Positions 39,703 through 43,146 of a stretch of DNA of 64,000 nucleotides are shown here, piece by piece (within the stretch, counting starts at the first letter, position 1; each line of letters starts with the position of its first letter). Source of the stretch: Oscillospiraceae bacterium (GTDB lineage: Bacteria; Bacillota; Clostridia; Oscillospirales; Oscillospiraceae). Location of the stretch: NCBI GenBank assembly GCA_021203045.1, contig JAJQBY010000136.1, positions 19,660-83,659 of the forward strand. Direction: 5' to 3'. The notes under the pieces are model-generated. The model saw only the letters and a list, made by a program, of their open reading frames with translations, was not told the DNA's origin and searched no databases. The position numbers and the translations under genes are program-made.

Positions 39703-40695
39703 TTACCGCCCGATGCAGCCCACGAGGGCCGCCTTGATGGTATGCAGCCGGTTCTCGGCCTGGTCGAAGACCTTGCTGGCACGGCTGCGGAACACCTCGT
39801 CCGTGACCTCCCGGATATCATAGCCCAGAGCCATCTGCTCCTTGGCCATAGTGGTCTCAAAGTCATGGAAGGAGGGCAGGCAGTGGAGGAAGATGCAGTC
39901 CGGATTTTCCGTGGCCGTCATGACCTGCTCCGTCACCCGGTAGGGGGTCAGCAGGGCCACCCGCTGAGGGATAAGCGCTTCCTCGCCCATAGAGGCCCAT
40001 ATGTCCGTATAGACCGCGTCCGCGCCCCTGATGTCCTTCAGATCGCTGGTGAACAGGATGTTCGCCCCGGTCTGACCGCCCAGCTCCCGGCAGTAGTCCA
40101 TAACCTCCTGAGCCGGCGCAAGCTCCTCAGGCCCCCAGCCCACATAGTCCACGCCAAGCTTCGCGCAGACATACATCAGCGCATAGGCCATATTGTTCCG
40201 GGTATCCCCGCAGAACACCAGCTTGCACCGGTGCAGGGGCTTGGCCGCATTCTCCTCCAGGGTCATCATGTCCGCCAGCGCCTGGGTGGGATGGTCGATG
40301 TCCATCAGGCCATTGAATACCGGCACGCCGGAATAGCGGGCAAGGCTCTCCACCAGAGACTGTTCATAGCCCCGGTACTCGATGCCGTCAAAAAACCGGC
40401 CCAGCACCCTGGCCGTATCCTCGATAGACTCCTTTTTTCCCATCTGCGAGCTTTTCATATCCAGATAGGTCACGCCGGCCCCCTCATCCCGGGCCGCCAC
40501 CTCAAAGGAGCAGCGGGTGCGGGTAGAGGTCTTTTCAAACAGCAGCACAATATTCTTGCCCCGCAGGGTATCCCCCAGAATACCGCTGCGCTTTTTTTGC
40601 TTCAGATCATGCGCCAGGTCCAAAAAATACCGTATCTCCTCCGGAGAGAAGTCCTTCAGCGTCAAAAACGAACGTCCCTTTACGTTCACAGCCAT
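39703..40695 (-). CDS. argF: Ornithine carbamoyltransferase
   Basis: EKTSTRTRCSFEVAA, HPTQALADMMTLEE, HCLPSFHD; start placed at MAVNVKGRSFL. Confidence 0.93.
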   Translation of the reverse strand: MAVNVKGRSFLTLKDFSPEEIRYFLDLAHDLKQKKRSGILGDTLRGKNIVLLFEKTSTRTRCSFEVAARDEGAGVTYLDMKSSQMGKKESIEDTARVLGRFFDGIEYRGYEQSLVESLARYSGVPVFNGLMDIDHPTQALADMMTLEENAAKPLHRCKLVFCGDTRNNMAYALMYVCAKLGVDYVGWGPEELAPAQEVMDYCRELGGQTGANILFTSDLKDIRGADAVYTDIWASMGEEALIPQRVALLTPYRVTEQVMTATENPDCIFLHCLPSFHDFETTMAKEQMALGYDIREVTDEVFRSRASKVFDQAENRLHTIKAALVGCIGR

Positions 40696-40750
40696 CTTAT
40701 CTGTCCTCCTGAATTTCCAATTTATCCCATTTTTTACAATCGTCCTGCTA

Positions 40751-41944
40751 TCAAAGAGAAAGCACGACATCCATACATTTTTTTGCCGTCCATACCATAG
40801 GGCAGGCGCACTGGGGATTGGCCTCCGCCGCCGCCAGGTCCGCTATCTCCTCCGCCATGATGCCGGACATGTTTTCCAGTCCATCCGGCAGGCCAAGACG
40901 GAAGGCCATGCCCCGGATGCGGTCGATCAGCGCCGCCGCCCGCTCTGCACGGGTACCCTCGGTCTTCAGGCCGGACTGCTCAGCCAGCGCCGCCAGGCGC
41001 TCCTGGGCAGAAATTCCATATTTTTCCAAAACCGCGGGTAGCACCAGTCCGCTGGCCAGGCCCATCTGCATGCCGGTAACCACCTGGATCGCCCGGCTGA
41101 TGGCTCTTGCATAGCCGTAGCCCGCGCGGGAGGCGGCCTGTCCCGCCAGGCGGGAGGCCTTCAGCAGGTTTTCCCTGTCCTGGGCGGCGGCGCCGCTGTT
41201 CCAATAGGGCTCCAGGCTCTGGAAAAACAGCTCCACCGCCTGGGCCGCCGCTCGTCTGGATTTATCGTCTCCCGCATTGGAGATAAACGCCTCCACCGCA
41301 AGGCACAGCCCGTTCATGCCCCGGCTGGCCGCAAGCTCCCGCGGCACATCCTCTATCAGCGCCGGGTCCAGCACCGCCACTGCCGGAATCAGACACGGGT
41401 CCTGTACCAGAAAGCGGTTGCCCCGTCCATCCGCCACCATGGCGGCGGCCAGTGCCTCCGCCCCGCTGCCGGCGGCGGTGGGAATAGCGATCACCGGGGG
41501 CGTACGCCGCCGGCCGATCCTGTTCCGGCCCACCATGCCCATGATCGTCCGCCCCCGGCGGACGCAGCGGGCGGCGGCCAGCTTGGCTATGTCTATCACC
41601 GGCCCGTCTCCCAGGACGATGAAGCTGTCGCACTCCTCTCCCAGCCAGGACAGGCGGATGTTCTCCCCATCGTCCGCCGTGGGCGGGTCGGACAGCGCAT
41701 CCCACTGGGTGAAGACGATATCGCTCTCCGAAAGGCTTTGCAGCAGGCGATCCGCCGCCTGCTCCTGGCCCGCGCCTAAGATGACCATGGGCTTTTTCAG
41801 CCGCCGGTCACGCAAAAGCTGCCCTACGCGGTAAATGGCCCCCGGTCCCGCTTCCGTCTCCTGCTTTCTCAGCGGACGCATACGGCTGCCCAGTTTATAT
41901 ATCCCCTGGCATATCCTGCATCGGGCTGTTGTCAGCAAACTCAT
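40751..41944 (-). CDS. Iron-containing alcohol dehydrogenase-family protein lacking canonical metal ligands
   Basis: Fold-level motifs GDGPVIDIAKLAAA, IPTAAGSGAEALA, LDPALIEDVP; metal positions substituted (see findings). Confidence 0.85.
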   Translation of the reverse strand: MSLLTTARCRICQGIYKLGSRMRPLRKQETEAGPGAIYRVGQLLRDRRLKKPMVILGAGQEQAADRLLQSLSESDIVFTQWDALSDPPTADDGENIRLSWLGEECDSFIVLGDGPVIDIAKLAAARCVRRGRTIMGMVGRNRIGRRRTPPVIAIPTAAGSGAEALAAAMVADGRGNRFLVQDPCLIPAVAVLDPALIEDVPRELAASRGMNGLCLAVEAFISNAGDDKSRRAAAQAVELFFQSLEPYWNSGAAAQDRENLLKASRLAGQAASRAGYGYARAISRAIQVVTGMQMGLASGLVLPAVLEKYGISAQERLAALAEQSGLKTEGTRAERAAALIDRIRGMAFRLGLPDGLENMSGIMAEEIADLAAAEANPQCACPMVWTAKKCMDVVLSL

Positions 41945-42180
41945 GTTTCATTCCCCGTCTCTGCTCAAATCGGCATATTATATATCTATTATATATTATC
42001 ACAAAACGCGAATAAAAAAAGACTTTCTTCCGCTCTTTCCGCAATCTGCCTATTTTTATACGCTATACGCTCGTTCATCCCACTTAATAACAGAAACCCT
42101 CCTGAAGCCCATAGGCTCCAGGGGGGTTATAAGGTCAGGGCGCACCGGATGCAGAAGCGTCCCCCCGATAAAATCTCGGT

Positions 42181-43146
42181 TTATTCCTCATATATGGTTC
42201 CGCTGAACATGGCGGCAGTATTTGCGTTTGTCATATCAAAGCTGCTTATATCCAAATCCGTAAGATTGCCGCACCCATAAAACATAGAAATCATAGATGT
42301 CACGCTCGATGTATCAAAGCTGCTTAAATCCAGTGCAGAAATGCCGCACTCGCTGAACATAGAGCTCATATCGGTCACATTGGACGTATCAAAGCTGCTT
42401 ACATTCAACTCCGTCAGGCTGCTGCACTGAACGAACATACTGGACATATCTGTTACCTTTGTGGTGTTAAAGCTACTCAAATCCAGCGTAGTCAGGCTGG
42501 AGCACTTATAGAACAGACTGCTCATATCCGTCACATTCGCCGTGTTAAAGCTGCTTACATCCAACTCCGCAAGGCTCCTGCATCCCATAAACATGCCACT
42601 GATATCAGTCGCTTCTCCTGTATAGAAGCAGTCGTTAAACTCGATGGTCTCCACATTCTCATAGTTAGAGAAAAGAAAGGAGCTGTCCACGTTGGCGCAT
42701 ACGCCCCCGTCTCCCGCAATATAAAGCGCATAGGAGTCATCCGCGATCGCCTCGACCCATGCCATCACGCTTCCGTTCTCGCTTGCGGACACATCCCAGG
42801 CAGTATCCTTCATATCTGAAAGACTATCCAGGAAAATGATGGAAACAATCTGGTCCAGCTCCAGAGATTCATTGTTGAAAACATATTCGCTCACTTTTCC
42901 ATTGTCGAGGCGATCGCTCATTAATATGTTTTCATTTGCGAGCGTATCTGCATTCTCCTGCAAATCCGCATCTTCCATAGCTTCTGTTTCCGTTTCCACG
43001 GCGTCCGATACTGCGGATGAATTATTCTCCGCCACCTCGTCAGATATCGTCTCCTGCGCCGAAGTCGTCGATTCTGATGAACTGCTGCATCCGATGAGTC
43101 CAAAAACGAGAACCCCTATGCAGAGCAAAATAACCAGTTTTTTCAT
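42181..43146 (-). CDS. Lipoprotein with DUF285/BspA-like leucine-rich repeats
   Basis: MKKLVILLCIGVLVFGLIGCSSS lipobox; tandem repeats (SSFNTANVTDMSSLFYKCSSLTTLDL...). Confidence 0.92.
   Translation of the reverse strand: MKKLVILLCIGVLVFGLIGCSSSSESTTSAQETISDEVAENNSSAVSDAVETETEAMEDADLQENADTLANENILMSDRLDNGKVSEYVFNNESLELDQIVSIIFLDSLSDMKDTAWDVSASENGSVMAWVEAIADDSYALYIAGDGGVCANVDSSFLFSNYENVETIEFNDCFYTGEATDISGMFMGCRSLAELDVSSFNTANVTDMSSLFYKCSSLTTLDLSSFNTTKVTDMSSMFVQCSSLTELNVSSFDTSNVTDMSSMFSECGISALDLSSFDTSSVTSMISMFYGCGNLTDLDISSFDMTNANTAAMFSGTIYEE

Follow-up and report, generated by a model that had tools for sequence, protein, structure and literature searches.

In the alcohol dehydrogenase FucO (reference sequence identical to 1rrm/2bi4) the metal is held by Asp196, His200, His263 and His277. 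A further active-site histidine, His267, does not bind the metal in the crystal and is likely a catalytic residue (PMC5125639). In FnYqdH the exchange of any one of the four conserved ligand residues for alanine abolishes activity, and a neighboring glutamate, Glu206, touches the Co2+ (PMC9917632). The coenzyme NADPH is contacted in T. maritima BDH by Lys161, Ser100 and Asp103 (PMC9917632).

Maleylacetate reductases have the fold of the iron-containing alcohol dehydrogenases (Fe-ADHs) and work without a metal. In these enzymes the aspartate ligand is Asn or Arg and the counterpart of FucO His267 is kept, which in GraC (His243) was proposed to be catalytic (PMC5125639). The subfamily is cd08177 (GraC, MacA, Ncgl1112 from C. 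glutamicum). A third type of relative is ErcA, an Fe-ADH-like protein which the title of Hempel et al. (2013), as cited in PMC12997753, connects with the regulation of ethanol utilization in Pseudomonas.

The Protein and Its Predicted Fold

The window is a stretch of 64,000 nucleotides from an Oscillospiraceae bacterium (contig JAJQBY010000136.1). On its minus strand, at 40751..41944 (stop codon included), it contains an intact reading frame of 397 amino acids, which open reading frame, Pfam matches and predicted fold characterize as an Fe-ADH-fold protein without metal ligands, here called pseudo-ADH for short. A promoter-like TTGTGA-16-TATAAT, a candidate by its match to the consensus, precedes the ATG by about 33 nt (41977..42004, minus strand).

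The protein matches the Pfam models PF00465 (Fe-ADH; 1.3e-25, 90.3 bits, cut-off 31.3) and PF25137 (ADH_Fe_C, the C-terminal domain; 5e-19, 69.2 bits, cut-off 27), and its relatives in the PDB by sequence are group III dehydrogenases. AlphaFold2, run with a 50-row alignment, predicted a model with a mean pLDDT of 93.5 and a pTM of 0.93, which Foldseek superimposed on FucO (2bi4) with a TM score of 0.88 across 381 columns; the PDB matches listed for the model all belong to the Fe-ADH family. Profile scores above the curated cut-offs and the fold together place the protein in the Fe-ADH superfamily, and the predicted model bears out the earlier claim, made from the sequence alone, that the fold is retained.

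The same sequence-only reading had warned that automated annotation would wrongly call the protein an alcohol dehydrogenase. The risk is real: the Pfam Fe-ADH model scores above its cut-off, and every match to an NCBIfam equivalog of the family lies far under its own. Since the Pfam cut-off is passed, annotation and metabolic models would credit the genus with an alcohol dehydrogenase, which at this locus it very likely does not have.

Loss of the Metal Ligands

In the alignment with FucO the ligands Asp196, His200, His263 and His277 correspond to Asn211 (codon AAC, 41312..41314), Leu215 (41300..41302), Arg280 (AGA, 41105..41107) and Met294 (41063..41065), and the catalytic His267 to Arg284 (CGG, 41093..41095), all on the minus strand. 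This confirms that the four ligands are lost, as had been claimed. The substitution of His267 by arginine had been listed with these changes and stands, although in the FucO crystal this residue binds no metal. The list of four ligands is thus correct, and a further active-site histidine is lost as well.

At E < 1e-70, 32 of the genus's 35 genomes yielded an ortholog, among them all 13 with a completeness of at least 90% and a contamination of at most 5%; the three genomes without one (G301, G309, G323) are 64-82% complete. None of the 32 has a histidine at the positions of His200, His263 or His277. At that of Asp196 there are Asp (13), Asn (10), Ser (6), Glu (2) and Ala (1), at that of His200 Arg (12), Leu (11), Trp (7) and Met (2), and at that of His277 Phe (19), Met (6) and, in the other seven, Leu, Pro, Val, Ala or Arg. 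These three positions (211, 215 and 294) vary as much as average sites in the clade. The position of His263 is Arg in 31 orthologs and Thr in one, and that of His267 is Arg in 28, Leu in two, Gly in one and Glu in one, never His. The 31 arginines at position 280 are encoded by five different codons, so that synonymous change has accumulated and the residue has remained unchanged. As a control, 50 other Fe-ADH domain proteins were sampled from the order, 30 from the best family-model matches and 20 from weaker ones; all 50 keep the four ligands, and their residue at position 267 is His or Tyr.

Histidine is absent from the window protein, where 6.8 residues would be expected at the histidine frequency of neighboring proteins. 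A conserved histidine column was sought in the clade alignment and not found, the maximum being 14 of 32 rows. The set D196/H200/H263/H277 of a functional iron-ADH is replaced here by N/L/R/M. As the amino acids that hold the iron are lost, it is almost certain that the protein has a job other than that of an iron-dependent alcohol dehydrogenase. Judged from the sequences, we are highly confident that it does not hold a metal in the canonical manner and that it does not act as an ordinary alcohol dehydrogenase.

The Coenzyme Site

The nucleotide-binding region had been described as retained, which is true only in part. Asp118, Lys121, Gly112, Gly159 and Gly161 are invariant across the clade, and the GxG turns persist. 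The dinucleotide-binding turn GGGS is eroded: its counterpart by alignment is GDGP (residues 112-115; 41600..41611, minus strand), and in the clade it reads GDGx, with Asp for Gly97 in 25 of 32 and Pro, Ala, Leu, Arg, Glu and others for Ser99. Thr141 is replaced mostly by Ala or Val. The coenzyme-contacting Lys162 is Arg177 in the window protein (41414..41416, minus strand); the position is not conserved in the clade (Arg, Val, Ile, Tyr and others). Of the coenzyme contacts of a functional iron-ADH (GGGS, Thr141, Lys162 and the aspartate of GGGSxxD) only the last, Asp118, remains.

With GGGS, Thr141 and Lys162 eroded, the binding of a dinucleotide appears doubtful, and with moderate confidence we infer that NAD(P) binding is weak or absent. 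Some nucleotide could still be bound because Asp118, Lys121 and the GxG turns are invariant. Elsewhere in the order, Ser or Cys occupies the Lys162 position in two otherwise canonical Fe-ADH proteins (L182 and L193) whose metal ligands are retained.

Descent and Gene Neighborhood

The maximum-likelihood tree groups the 32 proteins in a single clade with a support of 100/100; its stem is 1.39 changes per column long. When 401 genomes of the family were searched with a profile of the clade, the E-values dropped from 1e-145 to 1e-95, where the canonical proteins start, and no member was found outside the genus; nor was there one beyond the genus in 394 order-level genomes at 1e-95. The ortholog of genome G303 (L069:1021-2229, minus strand) has diverged much further (39% identity, branch length 1.67). 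Its ligand positions read E/M/T/E/R and the fixed arginines are gone too; it is perhaps a second stage of divergence.

The gene order in the genus is gyrA-rnhA..ROK-mbl<->pseudo-ADH..serS-parB-parA. Wherever the contig is long enough, the pseudo-ADH gene is arranged head-to-head with the gene of an MBL-fold protein and/or a ROK kinase. On its other side serS-parB-parA is found in 27 of the 32 loci, and four of the remaining five stop at a contig edge. Other genera of the family keep parA-parB-serS; a search of about 1.5 kb around serS did not find mbl-ROK there. The idea that the gene occupies an ancestral position was rejected because no homolog was found on the flanks (about 1.5 kb) of serS in 22 other genera of the family or of mbl homologs in 18. 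As far as sampled, the arrangement is genus-specific.

In the window the listed start of argF (39703-40770, minus strand) overlaps the pseudo-ADH stop codon; the likely start is the ATG at 40695, which is preceded by AGGAGG. Since argF separates pseudo-ADH from serS in no more than 10 of the 32 loci, it was rejected as an operon partner, and the function of pseudo-ADH is not tied to it. Between pseudo-ADH and mbl there is in the window a gene whose product resembles a lipoprotein and has BspA-type 'MSSMF' repeats (42181-43146, minus strand); it appears to have been inserted in this species, since related loci that contain both pseudo-ADH and mbl have them directly head-to-head. Some species have, between pseudo-ADH and serS, an open frame with the radical-SAM-like cysteine motif CTHGCIYC (L059:6216-7088, plus strand).

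A Probably Rebuilt Pocket and Its Possible Function

Six residues that are absent or rare in canonical relatives are invariant in all 32 members of the clade (R132, R202, W248, N249, R265 and F348), and five more nearly so (C214, R280 and W385 in 31, K308 and D226 in 30). At the position of FucO F254, which according to PDB entry titles was mutated in substrate-scope variants of FucO, Phe is invariant among the canonical relatives and Ala (A271) is present in 31 of the 32. The fixed arginines and A271 indicate that the pocket was remodeled and conserved rather than decayed.

Single origin, fast stem, released metal site, residues newly fixed in that region and a long persistence under purifying selection (see below) together look like a neofunctionalized pseudo-dehydrogenase. 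We consider it probable that the protein is metal free, has a rebuilt, arginine-bearing pocket and functions in non-redox binding or regulation. The metal-free pseudo-dehydrogenase had been proposed before from the sequence; ligand loss, monophyly, selection, synteny and predicted fold speak for it. The retained nucleotide-binding region is borne out only in part, and a sensor or scaffold, also suggested there, would be a conjecture. The ancestor would be an iron-containing alcohol dehydrogenase of the kind with an N-terminal helix that is common locally; early in the genus or on its stem it would have diverged fast and lost the metal site and most coenzyme-contacting residues, with its two-domain fold kept. 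The gene would then have been retained beside serS, head-to-head with the MBL-fold/ROK-kinase pair. In the old active site a fixed arginine, usually accompanied by a second, stands in place of two histidines, an alanine in place of the pocket phenylalanine and, usually, a bulky hydrophobic residue in place of His277. The protein would most likely bind a small anionic molecule or else a protein partner, the role being one of non-redox binding or regulation. Such a ligand-binding or regulatory role is weakly indicated, by elimination. That the arginine pair points to an anionic ligand, and the proximity of mbl-ROK to sugar or sugar-phosphate metabolism, are guesses.

The fixed arginines (R280, R284, R202 and R265 are fixed or nearly so) and the alanine for the pocket phenylalanine would also be seen if a new catalytic site had evolved. 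The arginine pair, with NAD(P)H or without it, could replace the metal as the electrophile that polarizes an anionic substrate, by a logic comparable to that of the maleylacetate reductases, and both Asp118 and the GxG turns are still present. Lys162, Thr141, Ser99 and the second glycine of GGGS are not conserved, however, the counterpart of the histidine proposed to be catalytic in GraC is lost, and the clade has no invariant histidine. A metal-independent enzyme is possible, though clearly the less probable reading; ligand binding without catalysis is favored over a metal-free reaction because the coenzyme contacts are eroded. We suggest only tentatively that the iron-ADH site, turned arginine-based and metal free, serves new non-alcohol chemistry or new metabolite sensing.

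A working metallo-dehydrogenase, with ligands supplied by other residues, is very improbable. Glu218, the counterpart of FnYqdH Glu206, is invariant in the clade, and both it and Cys214 are located within or beside the old metal site, where in principle they could hold a metal in another manner, as FnYqdH employs a neighboring glutamate for Co2+. But a histidine that might substitute as a ligand is found neither in the protein nor in any conserved column of the clade, the counterpart of Asp196 is variable (D/N/S/E/A), Lys162 is lost, and in FnYqdH the loss of one conserved ligand suffices to abolish activity.

The selection on the gene was estimated by the Nei-Gojobori method from close pairs, distant pairs being saturated and unreliable. 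The dN/dS ratios are 0.07-0.24 among the closest relatives of the window sequence and 0.10-0.31 in other closest pairs. An ortholog alignment, suggested earlier as a check for purifying selection at the substituted positions, showed the fixation of Arg at the position of His263 and the variability of average sites at the positions of Asp196, His200 and His277, in a protein that is under such selection. The loss of catalytic residues throughout an orthologous group under purifying selection would make the protein a pseudoenzyme. A decaying pseudogene, or a relaxed paralog without selected function, is the least credible reading and largely refuted by the conservation pattern: the gene evolves faster than its neighbors (44-56% identity to most other subgroups vs 88-91% for serS) and has the very long L069 branch, but all 32 frames are open without an internal stop, dN/dS is well under 1, invariant residues have varied synonymous codons, and every near-complete genome has kept the gene.

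The metal-free pseudo-dehydrogenase favored here offers a clean natural experiment, with one clade, one origin and 32 orthologs, in which the site was partly released (Asp196, His200, His277) and partly re-fixed (His263 to Arg). The path from a metalloenzyme to a pseudoenzyme or a new enzyme is directly testable in this clade.

Comparison with Known Systems

With the group III alcohol dehydrogenases (FucO, 1,3-propanediol dehydrogenase from O. oeni, 4fr2, and Mdh from B. methanolicus) pseudo-ADH shares the fold (TM 0.86-0.88, normalized to the query), PF00465 and PF25137, and the motifs GxG..D..K and PT..G.G.E. It differs from them in the absence of the metal ligands, His267 and Lys162, and is about 19-25% identical in the structural alignment.

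The maleylacetate reductases, as described in PMC5125639, keep the active-site histidine, whereas in pseudo-ADH all active-site histidines are gone: at the position of FucO His267 (GraC His243) the clade has Arg in 28 of 32 and His in none. Their exchange of the ligand Asp for Asn or Arg is seen in the window protein as Asn211, yet 13 of the 32 members have Asp there.

ErcA is a precedent for a regulatory Fe-ADH-like protein. Its model NF041833 is the best NCBIfam model for the window protein (4.9e-41) and is matched by all 32 members; with 141.1 bits against a cut-off of 550, identity with ErcA was rejected. By the tests run, the clade is neither maleylacetate reductase nor ErcA.

The closest relatives outside the clade are the canonical Oscillospiraceae Fe-ADHs (L009-L022), which are about 35% identical and share the N-terminal helix region. 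They all keep D-H-H-H-H, GGGS and Lys162, which the pseudo-ADH clade does not have. Among the open-access papers searched we found none on bacterial Fe-ADH pseudoenzymes without metal or on a clade with all histidine ligands replaced. Metal-free relatives of the Fe-ADHs are already known; what sets the pseudo-ADH clade apart is the full replacement of the histidine ligands.
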